A stretch of DNA of 64,000 bases from Bacteroidota bacterium (GTDB lineage: Bacteria; Bacteroidota; Bacteroidia; B-17B0; Aurantibacillaceae): positions 1 through 64,000 of the forward strand of contig JAIUNM010000011.1 of NCBI GenBank assembly GCA_020162035.1, read 5' to 3'. Under the pieces are notes generated by a model. The model did not search any database, was not told the DNA's origin, and worked only from the letters and a program-made list of their open reading frames with translations. Each line of letters opens with the position of its first letter. Position 1 is the stretch's first letter. This document shows, in pieces, positions 1 to 5,583 of the stretch. Made by a program: the position numbers and the translations under genes.

Positions 1-639
1 AACAGCGGTTTAAACTTTTGGAAACCCTATGGCAGCACCAATGCCAATAACAACATATTATTTTTACACGATAATAATAAAGTGGGTATTGGAACCGATA
101 ACCCAAGTGCACGCTTAACCATTGATGCGTGGGCAGATGATGCTTTACAAATAAATATTGATAATGGAAAAACAGGCATAGAAGTTAAAAATAAAACATA
201 TAATAAAACTGTGTTTAAAACAGTTTCAAATGGACGAACTGAAATTAATATGCATGGTGCTACTCCGAGTGCAGCAGTTGAAGCATTGATAATAAGAGAC
301 TTAGCAACAAATAAAATTAATTTTAAAGTAAAAAGTGATGGATATGTTTATTCACGTGAAATAAATGTAATGCCTACAAACATTACTTTTCCAGATTATG
401 TATTTGATAAAAAATACAATTTAATGAGTATTGAAAATTTGAATAATTACATAAATAAAAACAAACACTTACCCAATATACCAAGTGCCAAACAAGTTGA
501 GAAGGATGGAATAAATATAGCCGAAATGCAAATAAAACAAATGGAAAAAATTGAAGAAGCATTTTTGTATATCATTCAACTTAAAAAAGAAAATGAAGAA
601 TTGAAAGAAAGACTGATTAAACTGGAAAATAAAAATTAA
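1..639 (+). CDS. Tail-fibre/S74-like surface protein, C-terminal part (5' end outside window)
   Basis: The reading frame is open from base 1, so this is the end of a longer protein; the first in-window ATG (base 82) lies inside the characteristic repeat and is not the true start. The visible part begins with a KVGIGT-D-NP motif, typical of Bacteroidota surface proteins related to phage tail fibres and endosialidase chaperone (peptidase S74) proteins. It ends with a segment rich in asparagine and lysine, the phrase HLPNIPSA, and a coiled coil of about 45 residues (EIEELKERL type). HLPNIPS followed by a coiled coil is a common ending in this family. It is 20 bases ahead of the next secreted protein, on the same strand. 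Family membership is fairly sure; role at the cell surface is inferred. Confidence 0.7.
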   Translation, partial: NSGLNFWKPYGSTNANNNILFLHDNNKVGIGTDNPSARLTIDAWADDALQINIDNGKTGIEVKNKTYNKTVFKTVSNGRTEINMHGATPSAAVEALIIRDLATNKINFKVKSDGYVYSREINVMPTNITFPDYVFDKKYNLMSIENLNNYINKNKHLPNIPSAKQVEKDGINIAEMQIKQMEKIEEAFLYIIQLKKENEELKERLIKLENKN

Positions 640-659
640 TATTTTAAAATTAAATAATA

Positions 660-3600
660 ATGAAAAAAAACTGTTTAATTTTCATATTTGCATTTCATTT
701 TTTATTAGTTAAAGCACAAACAAGCAGTTATGCGCCGGTTACCGACACAATAAATTTTGCTACTTGGGAACAAGCTATGCAACATACTTTTGGTTTATTA
801 AATAAGTCACATTTTCCGAGTGGGTATTTATTTAATAAGGCACACCCAATTGACAAATTAGCATTTGCTGATGGTACTTTAAATGACAGTACGTTTAATG
901 TGTTTGAGTTTTATTTTTTACAAAACTTTGTAAGAATGAGTTATGATAAACCAGATAGTATAATCGGTTACTTAAAACTAGATAGTTTAAAAAACAAATA
1001 TATTGAACAATACGATGTACTTCCGCTTGGCTTTATTGATATAAAAGGTCATATGCTAAATCCTAACGCAATTTCTAATGGTGCAATTTCCATTATTAAT
1101 AAACAGTTGGTCGAAAACTCTACAAACATAAGTTCAATGTATCAAAACAAAAGATTTTTTTGTGTAGCGCCTTTAAATGAAGAAGTAAACACGCTAAATC
1201 CTCAGTTTATTATCAGAAGTAATGAAGTTTTTTCAAATAACACAAATATTGTAAGCTCTTTAATGATAGATGTAGATGATGGGCTTGGTTACAAGCAAAT
1301 AAATTTTAATATCCCTTTTCAAGCAAATTATTTAACTGATGGTTACAAAATTTTTACTACAATGCTCGTTTATTCTAACGGAGATACTCTTTATAGTAGA
1401 AGTGAGTTAAAAGTAAATAACAGTAATATTTTAAGTTTATTAAGTACACAGTTTAAACCTTTTAATTTTTCTTCTGTGGTTTACGGAAATGGTAGCTCTT
1501 ACACTAATTTATTAGGCGATTACCCAAGCGAATTTACTGGTGTTAGTTATGATAACGAACAAAACCAGGTGTATGCAGAATTAGGCATTTGGAATGGCTG
1601 TGGAAATGATATACCAGGAAGAATTAGAAAGCCATATGTAATTTTTGGTGGATACAATCCTAAAGATGGTAAATCATTATTGGCTGTTAATAATTACACT
1701 GGTTGGTTTGCCCAAATTGCCGGACCAATGGGGTTTTGGGACGGTTGGCGAGGACCTTTATATGAAACCTATAATGGCTTTTTTACAGATTTCTCTAAAA
1801 ACGCCAGTGGAGGGCAAAATTTTGGAGATAACGGCGCTAAATTACTTGATAAATTAACACAAGAGGGTTATGATGTTATTATTGTTAGATTTCATAATGG
1901 AGTGGGCTATATACAAACAAACGCATACTTATCCAGCTTGGTTATAAAACTTGTAAACTCATATATACTTAACGATGCAAATAATGTAATAGATGCTGGC
2001 GCAGCGCTTGACCCTGAAGCACCAGGATACCCCAACTCTACAAAAATTAAGCGCGCTAAACACGAGTTAGTGGTAGGCGGCTACAGTGCTGGCGCATTAT
2101 GCGGAAGATTAGCACTAACACTAATGGAGTACGAACACGATCCCTCTAAAAGAGATTTATGTGGGCCAAATGCCTATAAATTTCCGCACCACCGTACAAA
2201 AATATGGGTAGGTGTTGATCATGAGTGCCAGGGTAGTAATACACCGCTTGGTATACAAATGTTTTGGGATTTTCAAAAAAGCTTATACGCTTTACCAGTT
2301 AATTTACCAGATTTAATTAATTCTATTATTTGCAAATCTGCACTGGATATTTTACAAACAAGAGGGGTAGCAACTCAAAATACGTTGTACCATATTGATG
2401 AAACCCATGATATTGGTAATAGTACTTGGTCTAGCAAACCGCATACCGATTTTGATAAGTACTTTGCAGATTTAACAAATGTTACCTTGCCTACTACACC
2501 GGCAAATTTAAAAGGCTACCCTATTTTTCCTTATCGCATATCTATTAGCCAAGGTAATGCTAACGGACTACCGCAAAACATAAGTACTGAAACAAATATG
2601 CTTTTTAATCAATCTCCAAGCGCTATATGTATTACACCTTTAGGAACTAATTATGGCGCAGGAAATTGGCTTTTAAAAATCACCCCTTTTAGAGAGGCGA
2701 CTGCTAGAGTGCTTGGCGGCGGAAATAATGAAGCTTTTAATTGTAAAGCAGGAATGAGTTTTAAATCCTTATTTTACAGTTGGCACATTAATTATGGCCA
2801 CTGGAAATATTACACTAATAACCACGTAAACGATTGGTGGCTTGGCGGACCGGCAAAAAATTACGATGAAGCCACTGCAAGCTCTTTACCAAGTAACATT
2901 TTATTTGCAGAGGCATTAAAATTAAGTTATGATTATCCGCTTGCCTCAGTTACATTTTGTAATTTAAAACAATTTCCTAAAAAGCAAGCCGGCTTTGCCC
3001 CAACTGTTAGCGGTTTAGATTTGCATTTACCCGGCAACAACAACCTGCCGCGGTTTCCTAACCTAAGCATTGTACCAGGCAATACTAGTGGTGGCTTGCA
3101 TTTAATGCAACGTAATAAGTATAATAATTCGTTTGATCCATCACCAAACGGTGATTTTGGTTATCCTCATTTAACTTTCCCTACCAGCCATTATGATTAT
3201 ACACCTTATGATGCCATTTGGGCGAATACAACTAACGATGTTAATTACGACGATAACATTATGCATGTAGAAGACCCTAACCCACTTATTGGTGTATTTT
3301 TAACTGAAGAATTAGCGCCTAAAACCTTGTATTTAAGTAACCGTTTAATACAAGACCAAATAATTCATTGTGGTGCTAATGATGGAAGTTACAGCGTTAA
3401 GCAAAAATACTACGCCGATTTTGAAGCACGTAATTCTATTTTAGCTGGCAATCAAAGTATTTATCAAAACGAAGCAGACCCTTACAATCCCAATCCAGCT
3501 TTATGGTACAAAAACCAAAGAACTGCGCAAGGAGATTTTGTTGTAGGTGATGGCGCTGTGGTTACCTTTCATGCCAATAATTTTGATAATCAAAGCAAAA

Positions 3601-4034
3601 TTACATTGGGGGCTGGCTTTAGTAGTAAACACGGCAGTATTTTTAGAGCTTATCTATATACCGATCCTAATCTATGTTCGCCCTTTGGTGAAGGTGCGCG
3701 TACCATTGCAAATACATCACCAATAGTAGCCAAAAAACAGGCTAGGCCCATACATGCTAAACGTGCTACCAGTGTAAAAACAACTACCAATGCACAACAA
3801 AAAATTAACATTTTACTTTACCCTAACCCAACCAATGGCGAGTTAATTTACGTATTAAACACTACAGAAACTTACAATTACACAATTACCAACACCTTAG
3901 GGCAAGCAGTACAAACTGGTGTTTTAAGTACTAATATTAATAAAATAGATTTAGCGCAATTGCCTAAGGGGGTATATTTAATAAGTATTTTTAATAAAGA
4001 TTACAAACAAACCGATAGAATAATTTTACAATGA
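660..4034 (+). CDS. T9SS-exported protein with alpha/beta-hydrolase-like nucleophile elbow
   Basis: This is a secreted protein of 1124 residues. It has a signal peptide (about 1-20, ending KAQ), a long unassigned N-terminal region, and a segment at about 325-490 resembling an alpha/beta hydrolase: a beta strand ending IFGGYNP, a strand DVIIVRFHNG, then GYSAG at 474-478, a G-x-S-x-G nucleophile elbow with Ser476 as candidate nucleophile. The acid and histidine of a triad cannot be placed by eye. Residues about 960-1035 resemble the beta-stack (3-coathanger) repeats found before sorting signals (ITLGAGFSSKHGSIFRA). The last 75 residues form a T9SS type A sorting domain (YPNPTNGEL, then LPKGVYLISI). 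Its stop overlaps the start of the next lipoprotein gene (ATGA), suggesting translational coupling. Export by T9SS is well supported; esterase or lipase activity is only suggested. Confidence 0.75.
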   Translation: MKKNCLIFIFAFHFLLVKAQTSSYAPVTDTINFATWEQAMQHTFGLLNKSHFPSGYLFNKAHPIDKLAFADGTLNDSTFNVFEFYFLQNFVRMSYDKPDSIIGYLKLDSLKNKYIEQYDVLPLGFIDIKGHMLNPNAISNGAISIINKQLVENSTNISSMYQNKRFFCVAPLNEEVNTLNPQFIIRSNEVFSNNTNIVSSLMIDVDDGLGYKQINFNIPFQANYLTDGYKIFTTMLVYSNGDTLYSRSELKVNNSNILSLLSTQFKPFNFSSVVYGNGSSYTNLLGDYPSEFTGVSYDNEQNQVYAELGIWNGCGNDIPGRIRKPYVIFGGYNPKDGKSLLAVNNYTGWFAQIAGPMGFWDGWRGPLYETYNGFFTDFSKNASGGQNFGDNGAKLLDKLTQEGYDVIIVRFHNGVGYIQTNAYLSSLVIKLVNSYILNDANNVIDAGAALDPEAPGYPNSTKIKRAKHELVVGGYSAGALCGRLALTLMEYEHDPSKRDLCGPNAYKFPHHRTKIWVGVDHECQGSNTPLGIQMFWDFQKSLYALPVNLPDLINSIICKSALDILQTRGVATQNTLYHIDETHDIGNSTWSSKPHTDFDKYFADLTNVTLPTTPANLKGYPIFPYRISISQGNANGLPQNISTETNMLFNQSPSAICITPLGTNYGAGNWLLKITPFREATARVLGGGNNEAFNCKAGMSFKSLFYSWHINYGHWKYYTNNHVNDWWLGGPAKNYDEATASSLPSNILFAEALKLSYDYPLASVTFCNLKQFPKKQAGFAPTVSGLDLHLPGNNNLPRFPNLSIVPGNTSGGLHLMQRNKYNNSFDPSPNGDFGYPHLTFPTSHYDYTPYDAIWANTTNDVNYDDNIMHVEDPNPLIGVFLTEELAPKTLYLSNRLIQDQIIHCGANDGSYSVKQKYYADFEARNSILAGNQSIYQNEADPYNPNPALWYKNQRTAQGDFVVGDGAVVTFHANNFDNQSKITLGAGFSSKHGSIFRAYLYTDPNLCSPFGEGARTIANTSPIVAKKQARPIHAKRATSVKTTTNAQQKINILLYPNPTNGELIYVLNTTETYNYTITNTLGQAVQTGVLSTNINKIDLAQLPKGVYLISIFNKDYKQTDRIILQ

Positions 4035-4726
4035 GAAATATTTTAATAATTTTTATTTTAATTGTATTTACCACTTGCCGTAAAAAGAGTGATATTACAA
4101 TTACTGCTTGGAACTATGCCATGGCTGAGCCTATTACTAATGCTGAGGTAGCCATTTTTGAAGTAAAATACAAAGGAGGCTTGTTTAGCGCTGGCACTGA
4201 GTGTAAAGAAATAGCCCATGCAACAACTGATGCCAATGGGCAATGTTTTTTTAGTAATTTAAAACTTAATAAAAATAATGGTTTACAATACGCTGCTAAA
4301 GTAAAATACAGTTATGGTAAAGCCGATTTTTACAATTGTAATGTAACAGAAAACAGTGAGGTCAAAGTATTAAATAAGAATGATCTAACACTAAATAGCA
4401 GTGATTATGACGCTTTTATAAAATTTCAGTTTAATAACATATTAAACCCATCAATATCTGGCGATAGCATTTGGTTTAGCTCTAAAACACGAGCATATAA
4501 TCTACCAGAGAAACCGTATCCATATGGGGGGGGGGGGCTACTGAATACTTTTTATAAATATAATGGTAATAACTACCCATCAGTAATTACAACTAATATA
4601 CTGAAAACATATGCAGGTAAAATTCCAATATACATCTACAAAAAAAAAATGGGCATAGTTAGCCAAACTATTGATACCATTAAAATATACCCTTATGAAA
4701 CAAAAACTATTGAGATAAATTGGTAA
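4031..4726 (+). CDS. Lipoprotein with in-frame 12-G tract (paralogue 1)
   Basis: This 231-residue lipoprotein has a short hydrophobic leader followed by TTCRKKSD, with Cys16 the likely lipidated residue. Residues about 20-100 read like a small beta-sandwich of the carboxypeptidase-regulatory/Cna-B kind (A-NAEVAIFEV, then TTDANGQCFFSNLKL). No known function. Residues 166-169 are four glycines encoded by an uninterrupted run of 12 G (4526-4537). With 12 G the frame continues to a C-terminal segment of about 62 residues ending IEINW. With 11 or 13 G a stop follows within a few codons (read directly). The next gene is a close paralogue with an identical-length tract, out of frame. The start overlaps the preceding stop, so expression is probably coupled to the T9SS cargo gene. 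Confidence 0.75.
   Translation: MRNILIIFILIVFTTCRKKSDITITAWNYAMAEPITNAEVAIFEVKYKGGLFSAGTECKEIAHATTDANGQCFFSNLKLNKNNGLQYAAKVKYSYGKADFYNCNVTENSEVKVLNKNDLTLNSSDYDAFIKFQFNNILNPSISGDSIWFSSKTRAYNLPEKPYPYGGGGLLNTFYKYNGNNYPSVITTNILKTYAGKIPIYIYKKKMGIVSQTIDTIKIYPYETKTIEINW
4526..4537 (+). repeat. Poly-G tract (12 G), in frame
   Basis: Twelve consecutive G residues form four GGG glycine codons in the first lipoprotein gene. GGG is otherwise scarce in this AT-rich coding sequence, and glycine could be written without a homopolymer. Gain or loss of one G puts the gene into frames with an early stop. This is the classic form of a slipped-strand mispairing site. Confidence 0.85.
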
Positions 4727-4743
4727 TTTAACTTGTGAATATT

Positions 4744-4779
4744 GAATTAAAAAATTGTGTATTCTTTAATTCGTTTTTT
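4744..4779 (+). terminator. Possible terminator between the two lipoprotein genes
   Basis: An 8-base inverted repeat (GAATTAAA at 4744-4751, TTTAATTC at 4765-4772) is followed by a run of six T. The stem is AT-only apart from one GC pair, so it would be weak. It may end the upstream transcript just before the second lipoprotein gene or be chance in an AT-rich spacer. Confidence 0.35.
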
Positions 4780-4784
4780 ATGCA

Positions 4785-5426
4785 ATGAAAAAACAAATTT
4801 TAATACTTACAGCAATATTACTAGTTTTTACCACCTGCCGTAAAAAAAGTGATATTAGCATTACTGCGTGGAACTATGCTTTGGGCGAACCTATTGCCAA
4901 TGCAGAAATAGCAATAATGGAGGTAAAATACAAAGGTGGTTTATTTAGCGCTGGCACTGAGTGTAGAGAAATAGCCCATGCAACAACCGATGCCAATGGG
5001 CAATGTTTTTTTAGTAATTTAAAATTAAAAAAGGAACAAAATGTGCAATATGCTGCTAAAATTAAGTACAGTTATGCCAAAAACACTTTCTATAACTGTA
5101 ATGTAACAGAAAACAGCGAAATTAAATTAGAAAACAGTAATAATAAAATTTTAAATAGTAGCACTTACGATTGTTTTTTCAAAGTTAACTACCTAAATGC
5201 ACTAAATCCTTCCATCTCAGGAGACAGTCTTGTAGTAGCAATAAATGGCCCTAAGTACGAAGTTCCTGGTCAGCCTTATCCATTTGGGGGGGGGGGGTCT
5301 TTGGTAATAGAAATTATTATGCAGATAACAATTATCCTTATCCACCTGTATTTTCGAGCAATAATATTATATCTAACGCTGGCAAACACATACTTAAAAT
5401 TTACAAAAAGAAAATGGGTGTGGTAA
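4785..5426 (+). CDS. Lipoprotein paralogue 2, frameshifted at a 12-G tract (probable phase-OFF)
   Basis: This is a paralogue of the preceding gene: leader, TTCRKKSD lipobox with Cys18, and the same beta-sandwich-like region, near identical at VKYKGGLFSAGTEC and ATTDANGQCFFS. As written it gives 213 residues, but after the 12-G run (5286-5297) the protein no longer resembles its partner and becomes a hydrophobic, unrelated tail. Reading two bases later (from 5300) restores homology: an N/Y-rich segment, then KKKMGVV and a C-terminus ending IEINW at the stop 5489-5491. That needs 10 or 13 G. The restored product would be about 235 residues, close to the 231 of the partner. This is either a phase-variable gene caught OFF, a decaying copy, or a homopolymer sequencing error; the paired identical-length tracts favour the first or the last. 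Confidence 0.7.
   Translation: MKKQILILTAILLVFTTCRKKSDISITAWNYALGEPIANAEIAIMEVKYKGGLFSAGTECREIAHATTDANGQCFFSNLKLKKEQNVQYAAKIKYSYAKNTFYNCNVTENSEIKLENSNNKILNSSTYDCFFKVNYLNALNPSISGDSLVVAINGPKYEVPGQPYPFGGGGSLVIEIIMQITIILIHLYFRAIILYLTLANTYLKFTKRKWVW
5286..5297 (+). repeat. Poly-G tract (12 G), out of frame
   Basis: Twelve consecutive G sit at the same protein position (after PYPF) as the tract of the upstream paralogue. With 12 G the original downstream frame is lost. With 13 (or 10) G the homologous C-terminus is restored, while with 11 G a stop follows in three codons. Confidence 0.85.
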
Positions 5427-5541
5427 CGCAAACTATTGATACCATTAAAATATATCCTTATGAAACTAAGTTAATTGAAATAAATTGGTAAATTAAACAA
5501 TGCAGTTAAAAGCGTGAATTAACAATTTATATTAAAAGAAA

Positions 5542-5583
5542 AAGCTGTTAACAGAAAATCTCCCAAAAATCTATTAACAGCTT
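5542..5583. terminator. Inverted repeat after lipoprotein 2, possible terminator
   Basis: A 10-base perfect inverted repeat (AAGCTGTTAA at 5542-5551 and TTAACAGCTT at 5574-5583) has a 22-base loop and lies between two converging transcription units. The following T-run is short (AATTTG), so termination is uncertain. The remaining bases between 5584 and the end of the alanine dehydrogenase-like gene at 5700 show nothing else recognisable. Confidence 0.4.

Follow-up and report, generated by a model that had tools for sequence, protein, structure and literature searches.

Phase variation through changes in homopolymer length is well known (PMC11868660, PMC2831843, PMC3711429), and the closest described counterparts of the locus presented here are the poly-G/C SSR systems of Campylobacter, Neisseria, Helicobacter, Bordetella and Treponema. 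The likeness lies in a long G or C homopolymer placed in coding sequence for envelope or secreted proteins, in the presence of several such loci per genome, and in copies that are in frame next to copies that are out of frame. Unlike those systems, the present tracts belong to an uncultured, apparently environmental member of the Bacteroidota, in which we infer switching from sequence; the tract lies on a conserved glycine motif, three quarters into the gene, and a second gene family carries poly-C ahead of its signal peptide. The Vlp, Vpma and P78 proteins of Mycoplasma are also sets of lipoproteins whose copies can potentially be turned on or off independently, and P78 is frameshifted at a homopolymer (poly-A), but the Mycoplasma systems depend on A runs, promoter tracts or recombinases and are found in another phylum with another envelope type. 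In the same phylum, the invertible promoters of Bacteroides capsule and Sus-like loci likewise generate envelope diversity (there by recombinase-driven DNA inversion, whereas here tract length alone would vary and no inversion is implied).

Poly-G/C runs were generally under-represented in 99 genomes (PMC2831843). A 2025 review treats as open the question of why genomes rich in phase-variable loci appear confined to pathogens, suspects database bias, and for the Bacteroidetes discusses inversion-based switching (PMC11868660). In the open-access full-text literature we found no paper that connects phase variation at homopolymers to type IX secretion or to Bacteroidota, which is not proof of absence. 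An earlier, sequence-only reading of this DNA had called the locus a credible undescribed system. This is too broad for the mechanism, which is known; it is the gene families and the uncultured, apparently environmental lineage that are new, and the multi-locus repertoire is the interesting part.

Two tandem lipoprotein genes and their G tracts

The stretch of DNA analyzed (the window) comprises the initial 64 kb of contig C11 in a genome (G000) of 3.17 Mb and 31 contigs; the GC content of the window is 29.5%. The first lipoprotein gene (4031..4726, + strand) encodes 231 amino acids with the lipobox ..FTTC16, and is full length as assembled according to the ORF list, the alignment and the structure model, reading through to IEINW as previously noted. 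Its G12 tract (4526..4537, +) encodes Gly166-169 in frame. The second gene as read (4785..5426, +) encodes 213 amino acids, but its homology to the family stops at a G12 tract (5286..5297, +) and is followed by 42 unrelated residues. The coordinates of both tracts were confirmed, and the two share alignment columns, placing them at the same protein position. The missing family C-terminus of gene 2 is found intact and conserved in the alternative frame (5298..5491, +), which stays open ('...NNYPYPPVFSSNN...IEINW') until the stop at 5489-5491.

Reading the frames for G9 to G15 bore out the predicted length dependence. Gene 1 is full length at G9, G12 and G15 only; at G10 or G13 a stop follows about 6 codons on, and at G11 or G14 within about 2 codons, in agreement with the stop described earlier for 11 or 13 G, which is near-immediate. 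Gene 2 is full length at G10 and G13 only, and G13 restores GGGGVFG, the family consensus; as assembled, its tract is one G below the in-frame G13 of a relative (G014). A change in tract length thus decides between a complete and a prematurely ended protein, and the sequence behind the tract is intact. No A run in the window is longer than the A10 (4640-4649) that gene 1 also contains, in frame, in its coding sequence.

These in-frame homopolymers are longer than expected by chance. Apart from the two G12 tracts, the longest G or C run in the 64-kb window is 5. G8 has 10 overlapping matches in the window where 0.11 are expected, and at least 10 were reached in 0 of 100 shuffles; a first-order Markov estimate predicts 1e-4 runs of at least 12 per window. 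Genome-wide, 9 G/C runs of at least 9 were seen against about 0.9 expected (Markov estimate), four of them in such lipoproteins and three at the 5' end of tail-fibre-like genes. A general instability of A/T homopolymers was considered and rejected: despite the AT-rich genome, A/T runs of at least 11 occur at only 4 places, and G/C runs of at least 11 at 5. The genome has MutS homologs and thus shows no sign of being slippage-prone in general.

The two genes form the end of a cassette. The contig starts with the C-terminal part of a tail-fibre-like secreted protein (82..639, +), of the same family as the poly-C genes of this genome described below, followed by a gene for a 1124-aa protein with a type IX secretion sorting domain (660..4034, +) that lies directly upstream of gene 1 and whose stop overlaps the gene 1 start. 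No sigma-70 or Bacteroidota-type promoter signal stood out between genes 1 and 2. Behind gene 2 lies an inverted repeat, AAGCTGTTAA...TTAACAGCTT (5542..5583, +), which possibly marks the end of the operon; the scan did not call it a terminator. The order of tail-fibre-like gene, type IX sorting-domain protein of about 1100 aa and lipoprotein is kept in three relatives (G014, G015 and G022), and a diverged second cassette in the same genome (C28:15627-19998, L053, - strand) comprises a tail-fibre-like gene, a type IX-secreted 1092-aa protein and a lipoprotein gene with G9 and a broken frame. Tandem lipoprotein pairs occur also in G014, G015, G036 and at L074. The sequence-only reading had proposed a pair of switchable genes; two tandem copies are indeed present, but the genome holds at least four such lipoprotein genes and, in addition, three poly-C tracts.

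The glycine motif and the encoded protein

The tract supplies the glycines of a motif conserved in the family, PYPFGGGGVF. Of 60 related genomes, 12 contain homologs, all of them in the same genus, and more distant matches exist elsewhere in the class; the named relatives are, with few exceptions, MAGs of uncultured Bacteroidetes (one from groundwater), and homopolymer length in MAGs is a consensus. At this motif, pure-G runs measure 12 and 12 in the window, 13 in G014, and 10 in a third copy of the genome, on contig C7, which has one glycine fewer, is in frame and is intact. Length thus differs at the same site among paralogs and orthologs, that is, between homologs, and such variation (10, 12, 12, 13) is what slippage predicts. 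Other copies have GGA followed by G10 (G015 copy 2), an interrupted run of 6 G, C and 7 G (G013), or mixed glycine codons: GGC GGG GGC GGA in G015 copy 1, GGG GGA GGA GGG in G018 and GGG GGA GGC GGT in G022. Outside the tract, the third bases of conserved glycine codons agree between copies in only 11 of 32 cases and GGG accounts for 2 of 31 glycine codons, so the pure GGG of the tract is not an inherited codon bias. In the larger ORFs of the window GGG makes up 104 of 1210 glycine codons (8.6%). The purity of the tract appears to be actively kept or regenerated.

The sequence behind the tract of gene 2 has retained its coding capacity. Amino acid identity to relatives is 0.58-0.78 in this part, the frame is open as far as the natural end, and pN/pS is 0.20-0.48 (against C7, G014, G015, G018 and gene 1), the same range as among intact copies. 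Because the frame behind the tract is open and under purifying selection, gene 2 is not a decayed pseudogene. An AlphaFold model built from 8 sequences (pLDDT 78.7) has two beta-rich regions, with the tract (166-169) just ahead of the last strands of the second; the last ~62 residues form about half of this second beta-sandwich in the model. Judging from the model, loss of these strands should wreck the second domain, and the truncated product, which would keep its signal peptide and first domain, would correspond to an "OFF" state.

By inspection of the alignment, the lipoproteins carry a lipobox signal peptide, with Cys16 invariant in the 10 aligned members and a hydrophobic segment ahead of it. 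Their proposed surface location is less secure. Surface lipoproteins of the Bacteroidetes carry an acidic export signal, K-(D/E)2 or SDDFE-like (PMC5080379); no LES export signal (K-(D/E)2, Q-A-(D/E)2, SDDFE/SDDDD-like) was found at the mature start, which is CRKKSD in both window genes and CRKK, CKKK or CKRK in relatives. Since CRKKSD is without an acidic export signal, the lipoprotein may face the periplasm. Of the earlier designation as a surface lipoprotein, the lipobox cysteine supports the lipoprotein part; no known export signal follows it that would support the surface part.

No Pfam, NCBIfam or PHROGs family passed its cut-off for the lipoprotein. SpaA-type or prealbumin-like pilin and adhesin beta-sandwich domains offer the nearest likeness, through a weak Pfam SpaA match of gene 2 (16.3 bits against a curated cut-off of 23.1, E 0.011) and Foldseek matches to SpaA pilins and Bacteroides cell-adhesion proteins; yet TM scores are at most 0.34 against PDB and no match reaches a curated cut-off, a likeness at the level of architecture only, and we did not retain the assignment. 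Also rejected were a weak profile match of the lipoprotein to bMG3 and a match of gene 2 to Tox-MPTase2 that is under cut-off and covers only 30 residues (E 0.0065). The best Foldseek hits (TM 0.34 in PDB, 0.46 among viral models) reflect generic beta-sandwich resemblance only.

Poly-C tracts in tail-fibre-like genes and other runs

In tail-fibre-like secreted genes of G000 and of at least three related species (G014, G015 and G023), a poly-C tract lies between the start codon and the signal peptide. G000 has three: 11 C at C20:831-841 (L052) and 11 C at C28:4211-4221 (L053), both out of frame, and 12 C at C16:88844-88855 (L050), in a gene cut by the contig end. Eight poly-C genes were read in relatives (four in G014, three in G015, one in G023), one in frame and seven out. 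With the two readable G000 genes, one of ten is in frame (12 C) and nine are out (10, 11 or 14 C), the in-frame lengths being 9 and 12, or 10 and 13 for one gene. A tail-fibre paralog of the C20 gene, on contig C7 (L049 2952-4493, - strand), has an in-frame stop after SKTGTN and is apparently nonsense-broken. In G015, three poly-C runs of 9-10 lie about 20 bp apart (L116 ~2100-2165). In four loci of other Bacteroidia (L175, L176, L189 and L196), a poly-C of 10-22 near the ORF start is followed by a signal-peptide-like segment. The poly-C-before-signal-peptide architecture may be widespread in the class Bacteroidia.

Long runs are found in other genes as well. In G036, an in-frame C12 directly follows the lipobox cysteine of an open frame of 521 aa (L126 2234-2245), and an orthologous gene carries G16 in G001, a single-contig genome (L136 2454-2469), and G12 in G011 (L123 1958-1969), at the same site and with both frames broken. 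Runs of at least 10 number 6 in G000, 7 in G014 and 8 in G015, against 0-2 in most other genomes of the genus. Three tracts of these families coincide with a contig boundary (G000 C16 end, G014 C44 end, G014 C12 start); such breaks could be expected if reads disagree at the tract, paralogous flanks being an alternative cause. The very long G runs of G025 and G034 (in G034 at the contig start) were disregarded as probable artefacts of two-colour sequencing; the two window tracts are flanked on both sides by unique coding sequence. Nor can all poly-G in Bacteroidia be treated as one phenomenon, as many genomes have 0-2 runs and several outgroup runs are without a clear gene.

Probable slippage at the tracts, competing readings and significance

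We consider it probable that both tracts are simple-sequence contingency loci subject to phase variation by homopolymer slippage. Slipped-strand mispairing at replication would add or remove G in either tract, and the G count (9, 12 or 15 in gene 1; 10 or 13 in gene 2) would decide whether ribosomes enter the last ~62 residues in frame. At out-of-frame lengths translation would stop within about 2-6 codons or, for gene 2 at G12, after the 42 unrelated residues, probably yielding a misfolded or inactive lipoprotein. The two tracts would belong to a larger set of genes with G/C tracts, composed of the cassette lipoproteins and the tail-fibre-like proteins with poly-C. Lengths would change within the population, both tracts would switch independently, for up to four expression states, and the benefit may be envelope diversity, for example against phage or competitors. 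Of the slippage-type switch first suggested, the contingency-locus architecture, the intact gene 1 beside a frame-broken gene 2, the retained coding capacity and the length variation among homologs all stand; the switching itself we infer.

Other explanations bear mostly on gene 2. Its broken frame could be a homopolymer assembly error, the true length being 13 and both genes intact in most cells. We regard this as rather unlikely, but with an appreciable chance: an in-frame 13 exactly matches the G014 copy, errors in long G runs are most often of the 12-versus-13 kind, and the named relatives are themselves MAGs. Against it, broken frames at G/C tracts are seen repeatedly, across many genes and genomes and at different lengths, including the G16 of the single-contig genome. 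The agreement of several independent assemblies makes isolated error unlikely to account for the breaks in general, though it may apply to gene 2 alone, and even then the anatomy of the tracts and the length variation between copies would remain. It is improbable that gene 2 is a duplicate decaying into a pseudogene, with the frameshift fixed and the G run left as a mutational relic; a broken paralog adjoining an intact copy fits that account, as does the nonsense-broken look of one C7 tail-fibre paralog, but gene 2 has no second lesion, pN/pS behind its tract is 0.20-0.48, and pure G is retained even though synonymous sites elsewhere approach saturation.

Programmed frameshifting or transcriptional slippage could in principle yield both products from one DNA length with no switching of the DNA, as RNA polymerase and ribosomes, too, can slip on long homopolymers (PMC3711429). 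Known slippage motifs are mostly A/T runs, some copies are already in frame in the DNA, and the shift needed varies, the tail-fibre genes standing at 10, 11 and 14 against in-frame lengths of 9 and 12 (10 and 13 for one gene); because the required shift differs between genes, we hold this explanation to be very improbable. Least of all would we credit the possibility that the G run merely serves a glycine-rich protein loop with neutral codon make-up. The motif is indeed conserved in the family whatever its codons, but GGG is scarce among the glycine codons of the window, pure G is found in several diverged copies, and another family uses poly-C, which encodes proline.

Returning to slippage at contingency loci, a wider picture can be offered more tentatively. 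The tracts may form a multi-locus "phasome" in an uncultured, apparently free-living member of the Bacteroidota, in which the repeated cassette would vary at two levels and each cell would present an individual mix of envelope and secreted proteins, as a probable defence against recognition by phage or competitors and not against host immunity. In annotation, tract-bearing genes of this kind are likely to be mistaken for truncated or hypothetical ones, and contigs of MAGs may break because of them. With several tract-bearing secreted genes whose on and off frames are readable, in an environmental lineage, the question of whether such repertoires are restricted to pathogens becomes testable from existing metagenome reads.
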